NCBI RefSeq assembly: GCF_000293885.2
Contig: NZ_CP010945.1
Span: 682,001 to 746,000, forward strand
Reading direction: 5' to 3'
Length of the DNA: 64,000 nt
From: Pseudomonas fluorescens NCIMB 11764
GTDB taxonomy: Bacteria > Pseudomonadota > Gammaproteobacteria > Pseudomonadales > Pseudomonadaceae
The position numbers and the translations under genes are program-made. Positions 5,944-29,961 of this stretch are shown here, piece after piece. The notes beneath the pieces are model-generated. The model was not told the origin of the DNA. It was given only the letters and a program-made list of their open reading frames with translations, and ran no database searches. Every line of letters starts with the position of its first letter. Within the stretch, counting starts at the first letter, position 1.

Positions 5944-7019
5944 CAGGCAAACACCTGCAGGCTGCGCGGCGGCAAGGCGACCATGATCTGCTGGGCGCCG
6001 AGTCGCGGCATGGCTTCCGGCGCCAGTTCCGCGAGCAAGGCGTGGCCCGGCAGTTGATCGAGTTCGAAACTCATTCGGCAGCGGTTGCCGAGGAAGGTGA
6101 TTTCGCGAACCTTGGCCGGGAACAGGTTTTCCTCATGCACCAGCGGGTTGACGTTGATCGCTTCAGGGCGACAGAACAAACGGCCCGAGGCGGTTTTGGC
6201 GCTGCCGTCTGCCAGGCGCAGGCTCATCCCGCCGACCTGGGCGTGACTGTCGCTGCTGCGGCTGAATGGCAACCAATTGCCCTGACCGACAAACTCCGCC
6301 ACGAACGGCGTGGCCGGACGATCGTAGATTTCCTGTGGCGTGGCGTACTGCTCAACCTTGCCGTTGTTCATCACCGCGATGCGGTCGGCCATCAGCATGG
6401 CCTCGTCCTGATTGTGCGTGACCATCAGGGTGGTGATGCCGAGGCTGCGTTGAAGTTGGCGCAGTTCGGTGCACAAGTGCTCGCGGACCCGGGCGTCGAG
6501 GGCCGACATTGGTTCGTCCAGCAACAACAACGACGGCGCCGGCGCCAGGGCGCGGGCCAGTGCGACACGTTGCTGCTGACCGCCGGACAATTGGCCGGGG
6601 TACTTTTTCTCACTGCCGATCAGGCCGACCAGCTCCAGCATCTGACCGACGCGCTTGCGCACTTCATCGCGACCGCTGCCGGCAAGGCCGTAGGCAATGT
6701 TCGCTTCGACAGTGAGATTGGGGAACAGCGCGTAGGACTGGAACAGAATGCCGTAGTCCCGAGCCTGCGGTGCCAGGTGGGAAACGTCGCGATCACCGAG
6801 GTACAACTCGCCGCTGTCCTGTTTCTCCAGACCGGCGATGCAACGCAACAGCGTGGTTTTGCCACAACCCGACGGGCCCAGCAGGCACACCAGTTCACCG
6901 GCCGCCACGTCGAGGGAAACGTTATCCAGCGCAGTAAAGGCGCCGAAGCGTTTCTGCACGCCACGCACCCTCATCGGGGCGCCGGGATTGGTCAGGGCAG
7001 TTGCGATCGAGTGGTTCAT
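5943..7019 (-). CDS. 2-aminoethylphosphonate-type ABC transporter, ATP-binding protein
   Basis: A 358-aa ABC ATPase with Walker A GPSGCGKT at residues 48-55, signature LSGGQQQR, Walker B LLLLDEP and the switch histidine in VTHNQDE. A roughly 120-residue C-terminal TOBE-like extension is typical of the PotA/FbpC/PhnT group. It energises the fused permease immediately downstream. It is the first gene of the leftward transport-catabolism unit. The 238 bp upstream contain a family A REPIN and then the LysR gene. Confidence 0.85.
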   Translation of the reverse strand: MNHSIATALTNPGAPMRVRGVQKRFGAFTALDNVSLDVAAGELVCLLGPSGCGKTTLLRCIAGLEKQDSGELYLGDRDVSHLAPQARDYGILFQSYALFPNLTVEANIAYGLAGSGRDEVRKRVGQMLELVGLIGSEKKYPGQLSGGQQQRVALARALAPAPSLLLLDEPMSALDARVREHLCTELRQLQRSLGITTLMVTHNQDEAMLMADRIAVMNNGKVEQYATPQEIYDRPATPFVAEFVGQGNWLPFSRSSDSHAQVGGMSLRLADGSAKTASGRLFCRPEAINVNPLVHEENLFPAKVREITFLGNRCRMSFELDQLPGHALLAELAPEAMPRLGAQQIMVALPPRSLQVFA

Positions 7020-8137: not shown

Positions 8138-10423
8138 TTATTTGCGCAACAGACGCAAACCGTTGAACACCACCAACAGGCTCACGCCCATGTCGGCGAA
8201 CACCGCCATCCACATGGTGGCGATCCCGGCGAAGGTTACCCCAAGAAAGATAGCCTTGATGACCAAAGCGAGGGCGATGTTCTGTTTGAGGATGCTCGAC
8301 GTCTGCCGCGACAAACGTATGAACGTGGGAATCTTGCGCAGATCGTCGTCCATCAGGGCGACATCGGCGGTTTCGATGGCAGTATCGGTGCCGGCCGCGG
8401 CCATCGCAAAACCGATTTCCGCCCGGGCCAGTGCCGGAGCATCATTGATGCCGTCGCCGACCATGCCAACGTTATGACCCTGTGCATAAAGGGCTTCGAT
8501 GGCTTGCAGTTTGTCGGTCGGCAGCAGATCACCCCTGGCCTCGTCGATGCCGACTTGCGCAGCAATCGCCTGGGCGGTGTGGACGTTGTCGCCGGTGAGC
8601 ATCAGGGTCTTGATGCCCAGATCGTGCAGCTGCTGGATCGCCTCGCGGCTGGATTCCTTGACCGTATCGGCCACGGCGAACAGCGCCAGCGGACCGGAGT
8701 TGTCGAGCAACAGCACCACGGACTTGCCCTGCTTCTCCAGTGCAAACAGCTTTTCTTCCAGCTCTGGCGAGCACAGGTTCAGCTCTTCCACCAGGCGGTG
8801 GTTGCCCAAGTGGTAAGTCTTCCCGTCGATCTCACCGCGTACCCCGCGACCGCCCAGTGCTTCGAAGTTATGCACAACGAGCGGCGCAGAGGTTTTATCC
8901 ACTGCGGCGTTAGCAATCGCCAACGACACCGGGTGGTCCGAGCGTCCGGCCAACGCCGCTGCAATTGCCGGCGCCGAGGCATCGGCCGTGGGATCAAGCG
9001 ACAGGTAATCCGTCTGAACCGGCTTGCCGTGGGTGATCGTGCCGGTCTTGTCCAGCGCCAGATAGTCGAGTTTGTAGCCACCCTCCAGGTACACGCCGCC
9101 CTTGACCAGAATCCCTTTGCGCGCCGCCGCCGCGAGGCCGCTGACGATGGTCACCGGGGTGGAAATCACCAGTGCGCAGGGGCATGCGACCACCAGCAAT
9201 ACCAGCGCGCGGTAGATCCAGTCGAACCAGACTGCGCCCATGAACAGCGGCGGAATCACTGCCACCGCGAGGGCAAAGATGAACACGGCGGGGGTGTAGA
9301 TTTTCGAAAACTGGTCAACGAAGCGTTGGGTCGGTGCTCGTGCGCCTTGCGCCTGTTCCACGGCGTGGATGATCCGGGCCAGGGTCGAATGGTTTGCGGC
9401 GGCGGTTACGGAAAACTCCAGAGATCCCGCCTGGTTGATAGTGCCGGCGAACACCTTGTCGCCAATGGTTTTCTCAACCGGCAGGCTTTCCCCGGTGATC
9501 GGCGCCTGATTGATGGTCGAACTGCCCGATATGACTTCGCCGTCCAGACCAATCCGCTCACCGGGCCGCACCCGCACCCGGGCGCCCGGCTCGATGGATT
9601 TCACGTCTTGCAAGATCCAGCTGCCATCGGCCTGCAACACCGTGGCCTGTTCCGGGGTCATCTGCATCAAGCCGCTGATGGCGTTACGCGCGCGGTCCAG
9701 GGACTTGGCCTCGATCAACTCGGCCACGGTGAACAGGAACATCACCATCGCCGCTTCCGGCCACTGTCCGATCAGGATCGCGCCGGTCACCGCGATGCTC
9801 ATCAATGCATTGATGTTCAGGTTGAGATTTTTCAGCGCGATCCAGCCCTTCTTGTAGGTGCTGAGACCGGCGCTGAGGATCGAGATCAACGCGATAACCG
9901 CCACGACCCAATTGGGCGCCGCGCTGGTGAAGTGAATCACTTCGGCGGCGAGCGCGGTCACGCCGGACAACGCCAATGGCCACCACGGCTTTTTCTCGGG
10001 CGCTGGAACTGGCGCTTCGACGCCCTGCTCCAGCGGCTCGGCCTGCATGCCGAGGGACTTGATTGCGTCGATGATCGGCGCGGTGCTCGGCAGGTCGTGG
10101 GTCACGCCCAGCACGCGGTTGATCAGGTTGAATTCGAGCTGCTGCACACCCGCGAGCTTGCCGAGTTTGTTCTGGATCAGCGTCTGCTCGGTCGGACAGT
10201 CCATCGCGTCGATGCGGAAACTGCTCAACCGCGCGTTGGCAGTTGAGTTTTCACTGAGCTTGATCAGCGACGGCGCCGCCGCTTTGGAAGAACAGCAGGA
10301 ATCCCCGTGACCGCCATGGTCATGCTTCTGCACAGGCTGCAGCTTGTGGCTGTGATCGTGATCGTGATCGTGATCGTGATCGTGATCAGCCTCGGGTTTG
10401 TGGGTGTGAAGGGAATCGCTCAT
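8138..10423 (-). CDS. cadA: Heavy-metal P1B-type ATPase CadA (Zn/Cd/Pb export)
   Basis: A 761-aa inner-membrane P1B-ATPase that would export Zn(II), Cd(II) or Pb(II). In order: a His/Asp-rich N-terminus (alternating H and D near residues 12-25), a short His-containing linker, one metal-binding domain with the MDCPTEQ variant motif near 73-79, transmembrane helices, an ITGESLPVEK phosphatase motif, the CPCALVIST metal-site helix, DKTGTIT phosphorylation site, and GDGINDAPAL hinge. The CPC plus DCPTE pattern points to the Zn/Cd class rather than copper. It is divergent from cadR, with the operator at 10461-10481 between them, so it is almost certainly CadR-induced. The His-rich stretch is encoded by a hexanucleotide microsatellite. 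Confidence 0.95.
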   Translation of the reverse strand: MSDSLHTHKPEADHDHDHDHDHDHSHKLQPVQKHDHGGHGDSCCSSKAAAPSLIKLSENSTANARLSSFRIDAMDCPTEQTLIQNKLGKLAGVQQLEFNLINRVLGVTHDLPSTAPIIDAIKSLGMQAEPLEQGVEAPVPAPEKKPWWPLALSGVTALAAEVIHFTSAAPNWVVAVIALISILSAGLSTYKKGWIALKNLNLNINALMSIAVTGAILIGQWPEAAMVMFLFTVAELIEAKSLDRARNAISGLMQMTPEQATVLQADGSWILQDVKSIEPGARVRVRPGERIGLDGEVISGSSTINQAPITGESLPVEKTIGDKVFAGTINQAGSLEFSVTAAANHSTLARIIHAVEQAQGARAPTQRFVDQFSKIYTPAVFIFALAVAVIPPLFMGAVWFDWIYRALVLLVVACPCALVISTPVTIVSGLAAAARKGILVKGGVYLEGGYKLDYLALDKTGTITHGKPVQTDYLSLDPTADASAPAIAAALAGRSDHPVSLAIANAAVDKTSAPLVVHNFEALGGRGVRGEIDGKTYHLGNHRLVEELNLCSPELEEKLFALEKQGKSVVLLLDNSGPLALFAVADTVKESSREAIQQLHDLGIKTLMLTGDNVHTAQAIAAQVGIDEARGDLLPTDKLQAIEALYAQGHNVGMVGDGINDAPALARAEIGFAMAAAGTDTAIETADVALMDDDLRKIPTFIRLSRQTSSILKQNIALALVIKAIFLGVTFAGIATMWMAVFADMGVSLLVVFNGLRLLRK
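10352..10387. repeat. Six tandem GTGATC hexamers in cadA
   Basis: An exact 6-bp microsatellite inside the 5' end of cadA. On the coding strand each unit adds one His-Asp pair to the metal-binding tail. Slippage stays in frame and changes only the number of His residues. Confidence 0.95.
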
Positions 10424-21390: not shown

Positions 21391-21480
21391 TGTGGGAGCG
21401 AGCCTGCTCGCGATAGCGGTCTTTCAGTCAACATCTCTATCGACTGACACGACCTCATCGCGAGCAGGCTCGCTCCCACA
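21391..21480. repeat. REPIN-like palindrome, family B copy 1
   Basis: The tgtgggagcgagcctgctcgcgat end pairs with atcgcgagcaggctcgctcccaca around a roughly 45-bp centre. It sits between the convergent rpiA and SdiA-regulated-family genes and probably marks their 3' ends. Confidence 0.9.
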
Positions 21481-21498
21481 TTGGTTTTGGGGTGTTGG

Positions 21499-23610: not shown

Positions 23611-23702
23611 TGCGGGAGCGAGCCTGCTCGCGATGAGGCCGTGTCAGTCGACAAAGATGTTGAATGACAGACCGCCATCGCGAGCAGGCTCGCTCCCACA
23701 GG
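23611..23702. repeat. REPIN-like palindrome, family B copy 2
   Basis: tgcgggagcgagcctgctcgcgatg and its inverse catcgcgagcaggctcgctcccaca flank a 40-bp centre, just downstream of the FAH-family stop. Confidence 0.9.
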
Positions 23703-23711
23703 GTGTTGCGG

Positions 23712-24377
23712 TTAGCGGACGCTGCTTGTGAAGCTGCTGGCGCCCGGCAATTCGATAACCAGCTCATCACCGACATTCAGCGGACCCACGCCAACCGGCG
23801 TGCCAGTCAGGATCACATCACCGGCCTGCAGCGAGAAGCAGCCGGCCATGTGCTGGATCATCGGCACGATCGGGTTGAGCATCGCGCTGCTGTTGCCATC
23901 CTGGCGGACTTCGCCGTTGATGGTCAGGCGAATGCCGATGTCAGTCAGGTCGGCAAAGGTGCTGCCGGACACGAACGGGGCAATCACTGCGGCACCGTCG
24001 AAAGACTTGGCGATTTCCCATGGCAGGCCCTTGGATTTCAGCTCGGCCTGCTTGTCGCGCAGGGTCAGGTCCAGCGCCGGGGCGAAACCTGAAATGGCAT
24101 CCAGCACTTCTTCACGGCTTGGCTTCGTCGACAAAGGCTTGCCGATCAACACCGCGATTTCCGCTTCGTAATGCACCGAGCCACGCTCGGTTGGAATGGT
24201 AAAACCACCTTCCAGCGGCACCACGCAACTGCCCGGCTTGATGAACAGCAGCGGCTCTGTAGGCACCGGGTTGTCCAGTTCCTTGGCGTGTTCGGCGTAG
24301 TTGCGGCCGATGCACACCACTTTACCCAATGGAAAGTGGATACGCGTTCCATCGACATACTGGTGCTGATAGCTCAT
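23712..24377 (-). CDS. Fumarylacetoacetate hydrolase family protein
   Basis: A 221-aa FAH-fold protein starting MSYQHQYVDGTRI. Visible motifs are CIGRNYAEHAKEL, the metal-binding HYEAEIAVLIGK and the terminal GDVILTGTPVGVGPLN. Such short FAHD1-type enzymes are acylpyruvases or oxaloacetate decarboxylases. It lies 37 bp downstream of D-2-hydroxyglutarate dehydrogenase in the same direction, so the two are probably one transcript. That suggests a clean-up or 2-oxoacid role beside SerA by-product recycling (inference). Confidence 0.85.
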   Translation of the reverse strand: MSYQHQYVDGTRIHFPLGKVVCIGRNYAEHAKELDNPVPTEPLLFIKPGSCVVPLEGGFTIPTERGSVHYEAEIAVLIGKPLSTKPSREEVLDAISGFAPALDLTLRDKQAELKSKGLPWEIAKSFDGAAVIAPFVSGSTFADLTDIGIRLTINGEVRQDGNSSAMLNPIVPMIQHMAGCFSLQAGDVILTGTPVGVGPLNVGDELVIELPGASSFTSSVR

Positions 24378-24414: not shown

Positions 24415-25809
24415 TCAAACAGCGAAAATCTTGCCCGGGTTCATGATGCCGTTCGGGTCGAACACCGCTTTGACGGCTTTCATGTACTCGATCTCAACCG
24501 GCGAGCGGCTATAGGTCAAGTAATCACGCTTGGTCATGCCCACGCCGTGTTCGGCGGAAATCGAACCGTTGTACTTCTCGACGGTTTCGAATACCCACTT
24601 GTTGACGGTGGCGCACTTGGCGAAGAACTCGTCCTTGCTCAGGTTATCGGGCTTGAGGATGTTCAGGTGCAGGTTGCCATCGCCAATGTGACCGAACCAG
24701 ACGATTTCGAAATCCGGGTAGTGTTCGCCGACGATCGCATCAATTTCCTTCAGGAACGCCGGGACTTTCGACACAGTGACCGAAATGTCGTTCTTGTACG
24801 GCGTCCAGTGGGAGATGGTTTCAGAGATGTATTCGCGCAGCTTCCACAGGTTCTGCAACTGGGTTTCACTTTGGCTCATCACGCCGTCCAGCACCCAGCC
24901 CTGCTCGACGCAGTGCTCGAAGGTTTCCAGGGCGTGGTTGGCCACTTCTTCGGTGGTCGCTTCGAATTCCAGCAGTGCATAGAACGGGCAATCGGTTTCG
25001 AACGGTGCTGGCACATCGCCGCGCCCCATGACTTTGGCCAGGGCCTTGTCGGAGAAGAACTCGAAGGCCGTCAGGTCGAGCTTGCTCTGGAAGGCGTGCA
25101 ACACCGGCATGATCGAGTCGAAATCGGCGGTGCCGAGCACCATCGCAGTGAGGTTTTTCGGCGCACGGTCCAGACGCATGGTCGCTTCGACCACAAAACC
25201 GAGGGTGCCTTCCGCGCCAATGAACAGCTGACGCAGGTCGTAGCCGGTGGCGTTCTTGATCAGATCGCGGTTCAGTTCCAGCACATCGCCCTTGCCGGTG
25301 ACGACTTTCATGCCGGCCACCCAGTTACGGGTCATGCCGTAGCGAATGACCTTGATCCCGCCGGCATTGGTGCCGATATTGCCGCCAATCTGGCTCGAAC
25401 CTGCGGAAGCGAAATCCACTGGATAGTACAGGCCTTTGTCTTCGGCGACGTTCTGCAGGTGCTCGGTGACCACACCCGGCTGGCATACAGCGGTGCGGTC
25501 GGTCAGGTTCACGTCGAGAATCTGGTTCATGTAGTCGAACGACACAACCACTTCGCCATTGGCGGCCACCGCAGCGGCGGACAGCCCGGTACGTCCGCCG
25601 GACGGCACCAGCGCCACCTTGTGCTTATTGGCCCAAAGGACGATGGCCTGGACCTGTTCGGTGGTCTTGGGAAACACAATGGCGGTCGGGGCCGGGGCGA
25701 AGTGTTTGGTCCAATCCTTGCCGTAAGCATTCAGGGAGTCGGCATCGGTCAGCACCTTGCCAGGCTCAACCAAGGTCTTCAGCTCATCAATCAGGGCAGG
25801 ATTGGTCAT
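24415..25809 (-). CDS. D-2-hydroxyglutarate dehydrogenase (FAD-binding)
   Basis: A 464-aa vanillyl-alcohol-oxidase-fold flavoprotein with the FAD-binding PCMH domain (VPSGGRTGLSAAAV; GGNIGTNAGGIKVIRYG) and C-terminal FAD_oxidase_C domain with GHIGDGNLHLNI and ISAEHGVGMTKR. The D-lactate/glycolate dehydrogenase relatives share this fold. Position decides: it is divergent from serA, and the Pseudomonas enzyme at this locus oxidises D-2-hydroxyglutarate made by SerA, keeping serine synthesis moving. I chose the ATG at 25809 (MTNPALIDEL); an ATG 10 codons earlier is possible but gives a non-family leader. Confidence 0.88.
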   Translation of the reverse strand: MTNPALIDELKTLVEPGKVLTDADSLNAYGKDWTKHFAPAPTAIVFPKTTEQVQAIVLWANKHKVALVPSGGRTGLSAAAVAANGEVVVSFDYMNQILDVNLTDRTAVCQPGVVTEHLQNVAEDKGLYYPVDFASAGSSQIGGNIGTNAGGIKVIRYGMTRNWVAGMKVVTGKGDVLELNRDLIKNATGYDLRQLFIGAEGTLGFVVEATMRLDRAPKNLTAMVLGTADFDSIMPVLHAFQSKLDLTAFEFFSDKALAKVMGRGDVPAPFETDCPFYALLEFEATTEEVANHALETFEHCVEQGWVLDGVMSQSETQLQNLWKLREYISETISHWTPYKNDISVTVSKVPAFLKEIDAIVGEHYPDFEIVWFGHIGDGNLHLNILKPDNLSKDEFFAKCATVNKWVFETVEKYNGSISAEHGVGMTKRDYLTYSRSPVEIEYMKAVKAVFDPNGIMNPGKIFAV

Positions 25810-25875
25810 CGACGGAACTCTCGAACAATTCATGGTCATCCTGAGAACGCTTCACGTCGCAGGAATGAGTGTTTA

Positions 25876-25907
25876 GCGGGGTGCATATGCTAGCATACCG
25901 ACCCCGC
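25876..25907. promoter_or_regulatory. 32-bp dyad in the D2HGDH/serA divergent region
   Basis: Outer arms GCGGGGT (25876-25882) and ACCCCGC (25901-25907) share one centre with a perfect inner 12-bp palindrome TATGCTAGCATA (25886-25897). No T-run follows. This is a candidate operator for a dimeric regulator of both genes. Confidence 0.6.
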
Positions 25908-26013
25908 AGGATAGTGCCCAACGGCTATTCTGCGGCGACGGCTTTCCTGCCGTCCGGGTCAGCGTCTGCTGGCTATTTCCTGCCATTTTTCTCCGGGATA
26001 CAGGTTTACGCAG

Positions 26014-27243
26014 ATGAGCAAGACTTCTCTCGATAAGAGCAAGATCAAGTTCCTTCTTCTCGAAGGCGTCCACCAATCGGCTGTCGACGTTCTCAAGTCG
26101 GCGGGCTACACCAGCATCGAGTACCTCACCGGTTCTCTGCCGGAAGCTCAGCTGAAGGAAAAGATCGCTGATGCTCACTTCATCGGCATTCGCTCCCGCA
26201 CTCAACTGACCGAAGAGATCTTCGATCACGCGAAGAAGCTCGTGGCTGTAGGGTGTTTCTGCATCGGCACCAACCAGGTTGACCTGAACGCGGCCCGCGA
26301 ACGCGGTATCGCGGTGTTCAACGCTCCGTACTCCAACACTCGCTCCGTTGCCGAGCTGGTGCTGGCCGAAGCGATCCTGTTGCTGCGCGGCATCCCTGAG
26401 AAGAACGCTTCCTGCCACCGTGGCGGCTGGATCAAGAGCGCGGCCAACTCCTTCGAAATCCGTGGCAAGAAGCTCGGCATCGTCGGCTACGGCTCGATCG
26501 GTACGCAACTGTCGGTCCTGGCTGAAGGCCTGGGCATGCAGGTGTACTTCTACGACACCGTGACCAAGCTGCCACTGGGCAACGCGACCCAGGTCGGCAA
26601 CCTGCACGAGCTGTTGGGCATGTCCGACATCGTCACCCTGCACGTTCCGGAAACCGCTGCGACCCAGTGGATGATCGGCGAGAAGGAAATCCGCTCCATC
26701 AAGAAGGGCGGCATCCTGATCAACGCCGCGCGCGGCACCGTGGTCGAGCTGCAAGCCCTGGCGGACGCGATCAAGGACAAGCACCTGATCGGCGCGGCCA
26801 TCGACGTATTCCCGGTGGAGCCACGCTCCAACGACGAAGAGTTCGAAAGCCCGCTGCGTGGCCTGGACAACGTGATCCTGACCCCGCACATCGGTGGTTC
26901 CACCGCTGAGGCGCAAGCCAACATCGGTCTGGAAGTGGCAGAAAAACTGGTCAAGTACAGCGACAACGGTACTTCGGTATCGTCGGTGAACTTCCCGGAA
27001 GTGGCCCTGCCGGCTCACCCTGGCAAGCACCGTCTGCTGCACATCCACGAGAACATCCCGGGTGTGATGAGCGAGATCAACAAGGTCTTCGCCGAAAACG
27101 GCATCAACATCTCCGGTCAGTTCCTGCAGACCAACGAGAAAGTCGGCTACGTGGTCATCGACGTCGACGCCGAGTACTCGGACCTGGCGCAAGAGAAGCT
27201 GCAGCACATCAACGGCACCATTCGTTGCCGCGTGTTGTTCTGA
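26014..27243 (+). CDS. serA: D-3-phosphoglycerate dehydrogenase
   Basis: A 409-aa enzyme for the first step of serine synthesis; homologues also reduce 2-oxoglutarate to D-2-hydroxyglutarate. The catalytic domain carries GIRSRTQLTEE, the NAD-binding motif GYGSIGTQLS near residue 157 and the NAARG active-site Arg region. The C-terminal ACT domain (about 335-409) is the serine-binding regulatory part. The last 149 bp (27095-27243) are repeated at 29813-29961 with one synonymous difference. The intact gene is this copy. It is followed by a strong terminator and then the bacteriocin cassette. Confidence 0.97.
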   Translation: MSKTSLDKSKIKFLLLEGVHQSAVDVLKSAGYTSIEYLTGSLPEAQLKEKIADAHFIGIRSRTQLTEEIFDHAKKLVAVGCFCIGTNQVDLNAARERGIAVFNAPYSNTRSVAELVLAEAILLLRGIPEKNASCHRGGWIKSAANSFEIRGKKLGIVGYGSIGTQLSVLAEGLGMQVYFYDTVTKLPLGNATQVGNLHELLGMSDIVTLHVPETAATQWMIGEKEIRSIKKGGILINAARGTVVELQALADAIKDKHLIGAAIDVFPVEPRSNDEEFESPLRGLDNVILTPHIGGSTAEAQANIGLEVAEKLVKYSDNGTSVSSVNFPEVALPAHPGKHRLLHIHENIPGVMSEINKVFAENGINISGQFLQTNEKVGYVVIDVDAEYSDLAQEKLQHINGTIRCRVLF

Positions 27244-27340
27244 TCGCGACTGCAGGGGCGAGCTCTGCTCGCAAAAAAACGTGCGGACTCCGTGGGCACC
27301 CAGACTGCCCACGTCATTACTGGCGTCCAGCGTTGTAAAA

Positions 27341-27378
27341 GGGAGCCCCTCGGCCTAGTGCCGAGGGGCTCCCTTTTT
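27341..27378 (+). terminator. Rho-independent terminator after serA
   Basis: A GGGAGCCCCTCGG stem pairs perfectly with CCGAGGGGCTCCC around CCTAGTG, followed by TTTTT. It lies 98 bp past the serA stop, inside the presumed inserted interval. It would stop serA transcripts before the oppositely oriented immunity gene. Confidence 0.9.
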
Positions 27379-27516
27379 GTTAATTGTCTAACCCTCAAAC
27401 AATCGTAAACCTATCTCTAGACTAGGCAGAATCTAGTCACCAGCATCAGGAAGCCGGACGTTTCCAAACAATATAGTTGCTAATCGCGCCCTAAAGGTGA
27501 CAGACGCTTAGCAAAA

Positions 27517-27789
27517 TCAATCAAAAGTATATTTTCCCTCTACCATGAATATCGGTTCTCTCCAGTTAGGCCCCCTCACAATTCCGCCTCCACTAAACTC
27601 TACAAAACCAGCATCACGCATATGTCTCACGAGATTCAACAGCCCCATGTTGTCTCCCACATGCGCCCACCCAGCCACATTGTAAAGTCTGTCCAGTTGA
27701 GGAAGAGATATACCTAACTCATTTTTTGTGAAAAATAGAATCACCTCTTCAGGTTTTTCGTTATGCATAATTTCGTCTATGACGCTCAT
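27517..27789 (-). CDS. Probable bacteriocin immunity protein
   Basis: A 90-aa acidic protein (MSVIDEIMHNEKPEE start) with no signal peptide or membrane segment, so cytoplasmic. I do not recognise a named family. Its start overlaps the stop of the bacteriocin gene by one base (TAATG at 27787-27791), so the two are translationally coupled. Small size, acidity and position directly after a colicin-like toxin are the usual signs of a nuclease-inhibitor immunity protein. Base composition is AT-richer than the flanking housekeeping genes. The alternative is an unrelated small regulator, but the tight coupling argues against it. Confidence 0.65.
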   Translation of the reverse strand: MSVIDEIMHNEKPEEVILFFTKNELGISLPQLDRLYNVAGWAHVGDNMGLLNLVRHMRDAGFVEFSGGGIVRGPNWREPIFMVEGKYTFD

Positions 27790-29561
27790 TACTTCATCCC
27801 TCCCAGTTGCCTGTACTCTCTTTCCCTTTGTTTTTTATCCGCCTCTAAAGCATCAGGCGTGTAGAGCAATTCAGAAGCATCCTTGAGTTTGTAATCCTCC
27901 AGGGTCGCCGCATGGGTGTTATTCCAAGTAGCACCTTCATCATTCGGATTTACACCGTCAGCCACCCCTAATGTTCTGAAACGTTCAAGCTCTCTTAGCT
28001 CATGAGTATAGAAACGTTTGTCGATGGCTGTGACTACTAGTTTACCTTGGAGAATTTTTTCCAAGCGTTCAATCATGATGGGATTGGCATCCGAAGGGTC
28101 GAAGCGACCTGTATGCAATTTGACAAGGTCAATACCCGCTTTCGTCACGGTAGCATTGGTCCAATCCAGATCCAGGATTGGGCCGCCAGCTTTGGCGGGA
28201 TTGAACAATCGACCGCTGTATTTTCCTCGTGTGGTAGCCCCCTCATAAGGACTATTGAAAACAACGTAAATCGGCGGCAAGCCACTGTTGATCGGGAAAC
28301 AATAAATACAATCCCTGAAATCCGGTAACTGGAATGCAGGAAATGTTTCGGGCTGCACGAGTAGTGGCAACAGCTCAACACCAGTGTAACGCGGTACTTC
28401 CATGGGCCTGGCAGGTGAAGTTGTCGAACTGTTATCCCAGTGGATAATGGGAAAACTGAGGGTGATGGGCGGTGTGTCGGCGGAGGTGAAACTGTAGCTG
28501 TTAGTCTTCTGGTCGAACTCCAGCGCCCGAACTGGCACCGCTGGTGAAATGCTTCCTCCCAACGGTGTTGCAACGAGTGTGTATTGACCAAGGTCACCAT
28601 AAATTCGATAGGGAAGATCAATGGTTCCTTCGACAGTGGCGATTTCATTCAGGTTGGCCGGTGCATCTGGCAAGACCGCACTACCCGATAGTTTGAGAAC
28701 CGTTTGAGGATAACGCTCGCCGTTACCCAGAGCAGGTGAATAGAGCAAAGTGCCGATCCCGATCGCCGTCGCTCGACTGAGAAGTGCTTCTCCCAAACCT
28801 GTCAACAACAGAGTGCCTTTACGGATTGCTGCCTCAAAAGTCCAACCTTCCGCGTTTTGGAGCGTAGCGGCACCTGCCACAGTTACCACCTGGGCGGCTT
28901 GACTAAAGGTTAACCTGAAGCTGTAGGTATTTTCACCTCTAGCCAAGGCAGAATGGATCGCAGCATCTAAAGCTGGAGAAGCGTCCTCTAAAATGGAAAC
29001 AGCCTCGACAAGGATTCGTTTAACGTAGGCGGCTGTCAGGGATCTCAGAAAATTCTCGTAATAGCCTCGGCGTTCCTCCTCGTTTTCTGCCGTATCCACA
29101 CTAGCCGCGAATGCCTCGGCATTTTCCGCACTGTCCAATGACAACAAATCTACGCCAGCAAATATATTCGCCTCATACCAACTCCTATTCATATTAATTT
29201 GTTGTAGAAGTTCGACAATAATCTCTTTCTTTTTTAAGGCGCTTTCCAAATCACTGAATAGATGAGTGTCATTAGCTGGACTTAAGCGCCTCTCTATTTC
29301 ACTTCGCACACCCCCTGAGCTATTCGAAAAAACGCTTCCTATCTGATCTTGCACCGAATGCCCTATGGCTACCAACTTTGAGTATGCGTCGCGCTCCCTA
29401 TCGATAGTTTCAATAGGGTACGCCACAGTGACTGCCGGGAGAGTTCCGTCCCAACTGAGAGCACTGTCTAAACCTGAAATATATCCTGGGCATTTCTTGT
29501 GTTCGTTGAGCAAATCGCTCGACGATTTCAAAGACGGAGGAAAAGCGATAGTTTTTGGCAT
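27789..29561 (-). CDS. S-type-pyocin-like bacteriocin
   Basis: A 590-aa protein without a signal peptide. Residues 1-200 are mostly helical and charged. About 200-410 resemble the pyocin-S (translocation-type) domain, with hallmarks YTLVATPLGG near 325 and YSFTSADTPPITLSFP. A cytotoxic domain at about 430-590 starts near PPIYVVFNSPYEGAT and contains KRFYTHELRELERF (about 515) and WNNTHAATLEDY (about 545). The toxin is not an HNH colicin-type DNase; an RNase-like activity is possible but unproven. RBS AAGGGA precedes the ATG. It is coupled to a small gene that would give immunity. Shorter than most S-pyocins, so the receptor-binding part is compact. Codon use is AT-richer than its neighbours. 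Confidence 0.75.
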   Translation of the reverse strand: MPKTIAFPPSLKSSSDLLNEHKKCPGYISGLDSALSWDGTLPAVTVAYPIETIDRERDAYSKLVAIGHSVQDQIGSVFSNSSGGVRSEIERRLSPANDTHLFSDLESALKKKEIIVELLQQINMNRSWYEANIFAGVDLLSLDSAENAEAFAASVDTAENEEERRGYYENFLRSLTAAYVKRILVEAVSILEDASPALDAAIHSALARGENTYSFRLTFSQAAQVVTVAGAATLQNAEGWTFEAAIRKGTLLLTGLGEALLSRATAIGIGTLLYSPALGNGERYPQTVLKLSGSAVLPDAPANLNEIATVEGTIDLPYRIYGDLGQYTLVATPLGGSISPAVPVRALEFDQKTNSYSFTSADTPPITLSFPIIHWDNSSTTSPARPMEVPRYTGVELLPLLVQPETFPAFQLPDFRDCIYCFPINSGLPPIYVVFNSPYEGATTRGKYSGRLFNPAKAGGPILDLDWTNATVTKAGIDLVKLHTGRFDPSDANPIMIERLEKILQGKLVVTAIDKRFYTHELRELERFRTLGVADGVNPNDEGATWNNTHAATLEDYKLKDASELLYTPDALEADKKQREREYRQLGGMK

Positions 29562-29638
29562 GCAGCATCCCTTGCAACAATTTTAATTCCATTTGACAGA
29601 AGCATCTAAGTTATCCCGCAACAACGACACCATATCAA

Positions 29639-29655
29639 CAGTAAAATATTTACTG
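29639..29655. promoter_or_regulatory. Palindrome upstream of the bacteriocin gene
   Basis: Perfect arms CAGTAAA and TTTACTG with a 3-bp centre, about 78 bp before the bacteriocin start. On the minus strand a TTGATA ... 17 bp ... GATAAC promoter-like pair begins at its edge. It may be an operator. The half-site order is not that of a LexA box (CTGT-N8-ACAG). Confidence 0.45.
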
Positions 29656-29812
29656 CATATGCCGTGATTAAAGACTGGGTAAACTCAATACAAATTACTA
29701 TCCATAGTTAAATTTCCCACATCAAAAAACTCTATTTCAGGCAGAAATTCTTGGTGCATTCTGTAGAAATTGATGGTCTGTTACCCAAATTTTACTCAGC
29801 AGCAATATGCAC

Positions 29813-29961
29813 AAAACGGCATCAACATCTCCGGTCAGTTCCTGCAGACCAATGAGAAAGTCGGCTACGTGGTCATCGACGTCGACGCCGAGTACTCGGA
29901 CCTGGCGCAAGAGAAGCTGCAGCACATCAACGGCACCATTCGTTGCCGCGTGTTGTTCTGA
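29813..29961 (+). pseudogene. Displaced serA 3'-end fragment
   Basis: 149 bp match the end of serA (27095-27243) except C to T at 29853, a synonymous Asn codon change. It encodes the last 48 residues of the ACT domain and the stop, with no catalytic domain or start of its own. It is probably the original serA end left beside its native terminator when the bacteriocin cassette entered. Confidence 0.88.

Follow-up and report, generated by a model that had tools for sequence, protein, structure and literature searches.

Between serA and a gene for a DUF4399 protein, Pseudomonas fluorescens NCIMB 11764 carries two minus-strand genes, one for an S-type bacteriocin of 590 aa (the toxin, pI 5.0) and one for a 90-aa protein that we assign as its immunity protein. 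They lie in the stretch of 64,000 nucleotides analysed here, which we call the window, and the features of the locus in window positions are as follows.

26014..27243, plus strand: serA, intact (a 2-hydroxyacid dehydrogenase with an ACT domain; gene name from homology and recall)
27095..27243, plus strand: 3′ end of intact serA, the left copy of a 149-bp direct repeat
27337..27377, plus strand: 18-bp stem resembling a terminator, in the gap that separates serA from the immunity gene
27517..27789, minus strand: immunity gene, 90 aa, with a one-base overlap with the toxin stop
27789..29561, minus strand: S-type bacteriocin gene, 590 aa (open reading frame, Pyocin_S match, full-length relatives)
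27792..28256, minus strand: C-terminal toxin domain, residues 436–590, with a helical model; probably a non-HNH DNase by predicted activity
28260..28652, minus strand: Pyocin_S translocation domain, residues 304–434, including the D417-x4-FP-x8-Y432 (DPY) motif (profile match; motif from the translation)
28962..29561, minus strand: N-terminal region, residues 1–200, presumed to bind a receptor and common to full-length relatives
29770..29814, plus strand: stub that corresponds to the beginning of a 102-aa ORF in Pseudomonas sp. KK4 and breaks off at the serA copy (2-bp AA overlap, by eye)
29813..29961, plus strand: serA 3′-end fragment, the right copy of the repeat, followed by native-like serA-downstream sequence and DUF4399

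A preliminary description made from the sequence alone had both genes at these coordinates, strand and lengths with a one-base overlap, in a housekeeping locus and in DNA richer in AT than its neighbours, and all of this holds. The junction of the two genes reads TAATG, so that stop and start share one base; the pair adjoins serA; and the 1-kb segments starting from 27001 to 29501, at 45–51% GC, are the lowest of the 64-kb window, compared with 58–60% in those starting from 25001 to 26501. The 90-aa protein is indeed acidic (pI 5.0; 13 D+E against 8 K+R). Inspection by eye revealed no credible or integrase-like ORF in 27244–29812 besides the toxin and immunity genes, and Rfam gave no match at the gathering score. 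Upstream of the toxin we found no LexA-like site, no promoter-like site above chance and a single half-match to a P-box pattern. Elsewhere in the window a repeat of about 105 bp, 80% identical (21391–21493 and 23611–23712), flanks two other genes.

Pyocin_S (PF06958) matches residues 304–434 of the toxin over 139 of 139 profile positions (E 3.6e-27), which confirms the S-type bacteriocin with a pyocin-S-like translocation region that had been proposed, including the resemblance to pyocin-S domains expected beforehand within residues 200–410. At E ≤ 0.001 this is the sole match of the toxin in Pfam, NCBIfam, PADLOC (defence) and PHROGs. Against PDB sequences, the toxin has weak matches in the translocation region alone (klebicin G, E 0.025; an uncharacterised chain, E 0.033). 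The translation contains an exact D-x4-FP-x8-Y motif from D417 to Y432, a motif that Sharp et al. 2017 (PMC5536347), in the available part of the paper, assign to all nuclease bacteriocins examined and, outside these, to colicin B only. Judged by sequence, the classification of the toxin as an S-type bacteriocin with the motif of nuclease bacteriocins acting in the cytoplasm holds. Thirty-two listed proteins besides the window's own (P0002–P0033) align over 95–100% of the toxin at 78–89% identity, and the P. syringae-group proteins P0103, P0106 and P0108 align over 98% of it at 40–41% identity; in this search the 8000 candidates sharing most words were scored, 161 homologues were found and the best 120 listed. 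Because these proteins align near full length, the N-terminus is a common one and no orphan module, contrary to the unusual receptor-binding module predicted from it.

The C-terminal residues 436–590 match no family at E ≤ 0.001 in Pfam, NCBIfam, PADLOC or PHROGs and, in Pfam, none even at E ≤ 1; one NCBIfam match, to a T6SS-effector family, overlaps residues 413–437 but scores far below the cut-off. No Col-Pyo_DNase or HNH profile of Pfam or NCBIfam matches the toxin, and identity as an HNH DNase of the colicin E9/pyocin S2 kind was rejected on these grounds; the same Pfam library detects Col-Pyo_DNase in another bacteriocin locus, L226. The domain has chance-level matches only to PDB sequences. 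Its model is helical with a pLDDT of 90, and comparison of the model with PDB folds, including a second look, and with viral models produced no convincing match and no solved nuclease. The landmarks KRFYTHELRELERF and WNNTHAATLEDY fall within conserved blocks of the domain, whose conserved-residue list was drawn from 102 distinct sequences, in keeping with the distinct toxin domain lacking an HNH motif that had been noted. The 90-aa protein likewise has no family at E ≤ 0.001 in Pfam, NCBIfam, PADLOC or PHROGs and chance-level matches only to PDB sequences.

The toxin domain is probably a non-HNH DNase of the pyocin S3/carocin S1 type, as judged from published descriptions of such bacteriocins. 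A 711-aa relative in P. aeruginosa (L265; 39% identity over 449 aa) lies near toxA, and has a 53% identical toxin domain and an 85-aa immunity protein of the same family as the 90-aa protein. The pyocin S3 genes of strain PA14 are given as PA14_49520/49510, which we take to be the toxA neighbourhood. A locus of Pectobacterium betavasculorum carries the same toxin domain at 56% identity. In the available part of Loper et al. 2012 (PMC3390384), bacteriocins of the P. fluorescens group with PF06958 are described whose active domains resemble that of pyocin S3 (about 50% identity) or that of carocin S1 (about 40%). Another paper mentions hybrid Pseudomonas bacteriocins with S3-like DNase domains (PMC5358913), and Sharp et al. 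2017 (PMC5536347) treat the pyocin S3 kind as a non-HNH DNase and report a new member, pyocin Sn, as active on three P. aeruginosa strains. It is these descriptions, the S3-like hybrids and the L265 relative near toxA that make this type likely, if unproven. The absence of the domain from the libraries is expected, since in a 2023 review (PMC9990079) both pyocin S3 and carocin S1 appear as DNases whose domains escape detection. The assignment is weakened by disagreement on whether Pfam covers the pyocin S3 domain: Sharp et al. 2017 (PMC5536347) state that they used Pfam profiles for this cytotoxic domain, whereas the available part of the review (PMC9990079) gives pyocin S3 no family.

Alternatively, the domain could be a different, new activity, for example a helical RNase, mounted on a pyocin-S carrier and blocked by the 90-aa protein. 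Such an activity would suit a region that has neither a Pfam or NCBIfam family nor a PDB sequence relative nor a convincing PDB or viral fold match, and the Pfam profile that Sharp et al. mention for pyocin S3 has no counterpart among the matches here. Conversely, Loper et al. report S3/carocin S1-like active domains in the PF06958 bacteriocins of this very group, and the review leads one to expect such DNase domains to be missing from libraries. We regard a new activity as unlikely, and the earlier suggestion that the killing activity may be new gives way to a non-HNH DNase of an already published kind as the likeliest class.

The assignment of the 90-aa protein as the coupled immunity protein, proposed from gene order, is now supported by its distribution. 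We compared 181 loci (the window and 180 fetched), 134 of which were distinct and long enough, and examined the 1.6 kb that follow the translocation match for the immunity family. This family lies downstream at 79/79 loci with the toxin domain and at 1/55 with other toxin domains, which divides the 134 loci into 79 with domain and immunity, 54 with neither, one with immunity only and none with the domain only. Among the 66 loci chosen independently of the toxin domain, the counts are 11/11 with it and 1/55 without. These proportions (79/79 against 1/55) therefore argue for a genuine toxin–immunity pair, and as the two remain together on varying carriers, it is the toxin domain that the antidote accompanies. 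With a simpler search by a single sequence, 96 of 100 fetched loci (duplicates counted) had an immunity match, the exceptions being L098, L113, L131 and L133. Across 68 loci, comparison of distance matrices gave no specific coevolution signal for toxin domain and immunity protein, since the divergence of the latter is correlated no less closely with that of the translocation domain (r 0.63) than with that of the toxin domain (r 0.57). The 90-aa protein may nonetheless bind the toxin domain directly, as we infer from the pairing. Two further loci deserve mention in their own right: L261 is a pyocin locus with the immunity family and without this toxin domain, where the immunity gene is possibly an orphan, and a locus of Pseudomonas viridiflava p2.C9 (L094/L206) is a module array with six toxin-domain and at least three immunity matches.

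Relatives of the pair are widespread. At E ≤ 0.001 the whole toxin is matched in 141 of 298 genomes of the genus, many of them via the translocation domain alone, and the 90-aa protein is matched in 46 of the 298. When the toxin domain was searched by itself, 493 of 1833 scored candidates proved to be relatives at E ≤ 0.001; the domain was confirmed in 106 of 154 pattern-matched stretches of species-representative genomes, of which 80 were kept as loci. It occurs in Pseudomonas, Kosakonia, Erwinia, Serratia, Klebsiella, Pantoea, Pectobacterium, Rouxiella, Xenorhabdus and other genera, in 36 plasmid records and in 16 IMG/VR viral contigs, while phage records contain no match to the full-length toxin. 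Outside the gammaproteobacteria, a toxin-domain match of 31% identity lies some 0.9 kb ahead of an RHS core gene on the Methylosinus trichosporium plasmid pOB3b3 (L267). Some chromosomal slots are shared between strains: close cassette relatives occupy one slot in three strains (L044, L045, L063), flanked by what we take from the sequences to be flagellar basal-rod and CheR-like genes, and another slot (L065, L070, L073, L074) holds cassette relatives beside a 90-aa gene, with a presumed efflux-like gene on its other flank.

A feature that the preliminary description missed concerns how the pair came to lie where it does. The last 149 bp of serA (27095–27243) recur beyond the toxin at 29813–29961 with one mismatch, and these are the two matches, and the only ones, that the serA end has in the whole genome (one contig, 6,998,154 bp); this duplication is clearly a recombination scar. 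The site is empty in each of the 29 close relatives that were inspected, serA being followed there by intergenic and then DUF4399-side sequence, and it is this serA-downstream sequence that the DNA to the right of the second serA copy in the window resembles. Pseudomonas sp. KK4 (L068) has the immunity and toxin genes in the same order between serA and DUF4399, without a second serA end and with the toxin homologue split into two ORFs. Window and KK4 are collinear from 25000 through serA, the terminator, the immunity gene and most of the toxin gene to 29814, with 132 bp of the latter (28702–28833) having no match in KK4. Past 29814, KK4 continues with a 102-aa ORF and then DUF4399, whereas the window jumps, with a 2-bp overlap, to serA sequence. 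The simplest reading would be an exchange between a cassette-bearing donor and a cassette-free recipient, homologous at serA and illegitimate at the other side, the two kinds of side being read from a single comparison strain, KK4. A similar scar would result if a circle had been inserted by a single crossover. The single mismatch of the right serA copy occurs in none of the 41 rows compared (37 genomes; a further row, the 42nd, was dropped for incomplete alignment), so that no donor is identified by it. A second match to the serA end is present in 18 of 297 other genomes; in the 13 of these that were examined, none lies in the stretch fetched around serA, and serA as a hotspot of repeated duplication was rejected for this reason.

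The same scar could be read differently, as the mark of a small integrative element inserted at the 3′ end of serA by an integrase acting in trans, in which case the 149-bp repeats would be attL and attR. The position at a gene end, the gene left intact and the repeat on both sides would all be in line with this, as would two other cassettes (L061, L077) that lie in islands beside integrase-like ORFs, recognised by eye, with repeats of 514–540 bp. Set against these are the lack of any integrase-like ORF seen by eye between the two copies, the KK4 cassette, which occupies the same place without a second serA end and whose homology reaches the right boundary, where the KK4 ORF is cut in the window, and the zero of 13 examined genomes with a match around serA. 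An integrative element is, to our minds, rather improbable, and we continue to prefer capture by one homologous and one illegitimate join.

Direct repeats also bracket other bacteriocin genes. In the final test, with repeats of at least 60 bp and at least 80% identity lying less than 6 kb apart, and genes of at least 300 aa from the same stretches as controls, such repeats flank 14 of the 154 distinct bacteriocin loci but only 8 of the 596 other genes. The odds ratio is 7.4, with a p of 1e-5 that is rough because the loci are related. A first run, with repeats of at least 35 bp and duplicate loci included, had given 12 of 101 loci against 25 of 1282 intervals; a second (17/173 against 9/681) was set aside for incomplete removal of duplicates. 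Within the 14, L140 and L224 look by position alone like repeated toxin or immunity modules, L194 and L196 have repeated terminator-containing segments and L061 and L077 are the islands described above; these six may have other causes, and eight remain when they are left out, L047 and L078 among them without an explanation. The repeat is the 3′ end of a neighbouring gene in the window (serA), L090 (ABC transporter ATPase), L226 (MotB), L073 (a 90-aa gene without a Pfam match) and L132 (DUF6124). In L226, an HNH pyocin lies between motB and a 125-bp, 80% identical copy of the motB 3′ end with terminator-like sequence, and in L050 the repeat, found immediately behind the immunity gene, is a 97-bp stretch from inside a GntR-aminotransferase gene (6078–6174 and 9448–9544). 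At four loci (the window, L090, L226 and L073) the fragment is upstream of the toxin, and the intact gene is directed towards the immunity gene; in L132 this orientation is reversed. The L073 fragment recurs upstream of the toxin in L072, with a 23-bp remnant in L070. The excess of repeats suggests that capture with bracketing repeats is no one-off. Searches of the open-access literature on bacteriocins, such recombination, direct repeats and serA turned up no description of core-gene-end duplication beside bacteriocins.

What we observe directly is the set of domains, the strict association of the toxin domain with the immunity family, the duplication, and a collinear cassette in KK4 that lacks it; the account that we build on them, of a secreted nuclease bacteriocin and its immunity protein captured beside serA through a homologous and an illegitimate join, is in our judgement probably correct. 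The toxin would bind an outer-membrane receptor of related bacteria via its N-terminal region and cross the envelope with its Pyocin_S domain. Once in the cytoplasm its C-terminal domain would act, the likeliest activity being that of a metal-dependent non-HNH DNase of the pyocin S3/carocin S1 type, and in the producer the 90-aa protein would bind and block this domain. The pair would have arrived between serA and DUF4399 from a strain already carrying the cassette there, one end being joined by homology in serA and the other by an illegitimate join into the 3′ end of the recipient's serA, a join that would leave the 149-bp duplicate. That the pair is instead a decayed remnant without function, a reading for which the split KK4 homologue and stops or frameshifts in some relatives (L047, L061) might speak, is most improbable, as neither reading frame is interrupted in the window and relatives of full length are common.

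The bacteriocin itself is of a known kind with an ordinary toxin, and the interest lies in its capture route. The serA scar, together with the duplication-free KK4 cassette in the same slot, offers a traceable example of the entry of a bacteriocin into a housekeeping locus. A bolder proposal, which we put forward tentatively and as somewhat doubtful, joins two claims: that the toxin domain has a helical nuclease fold absent from the PDB, with H483, N493, R499, H520-E521, E524, N547, H550 and E555-D556 as candidate active-site residues, and that Pseudomonas bacteriocin cassettes are repeatedly captured without an integrase at the 3′ ends of core genes, with a partial copy of the end on the far side. 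Repeated 3′-end capture, if true, would explain how such toxins come to occupy the same small number of chromosomal slots. The confident model and the conserved residues make the catalytic site of the domain testable, and the domain is widespread, yet no Pfam, NCBIfam or PDB entry was found for it.

Among known systems, pyocins S3 and Sn are described as having a non-HNH toxin domain and a downstream immunity gene, as in the window pair; the P. aeruginosa relative L265 differs from the window toxin in N-terminus and length. The pyocin S3 immunity protein has about 154 aa and is therefore a poor fit with the 90-aa protein. Carocin S1, from another host genus (Pectobacterium), is described as a DNase without a recognised domain. 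Its immunity protein, at about 90 aa, is similar in size to that of the window. Sano and Kageyama are said to have described, in 1993, a transposon-like structure carrying the pyocin AP41 genes; that pair would travel on a mobile unit, whereas no transposon-like structure is recognised around the window pair. The carocin D type is a second, distinct non-HNH kind (PMC5909648), carocin S3 was rejected as a model because it is described with an H-N-H domain (PMC7461348), and a Yersinia pyocin-like DNase effector is described in PMC11237486. The bacteriocin genes of the P. fluorescens group often lie in atypical regions, clustered with immunity genes (PMC3390384), and the Group N2 bacteriocins among them share, by description, PF06958 and an S3/carocin S1-like active domain with the window toxin; duplicated core-gene ends, of which the window pair has one, go unmentioned in the available part of that paper. 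A parallel to the proposed capture comes from the T6SS effector–immunity modules of Vibrio cholerae, for which homology-facilitated illegitimate recombination has been proposed (PMC5361080): there, too, toxin–immunity cassettes would enter by one homologous and one illegitimate join, but the Vibrio event, as described in the available part, displaces the effector and keeps an orphan immunity gene, whereas in the window it is the 3′ end of a core gene that is duplicated.
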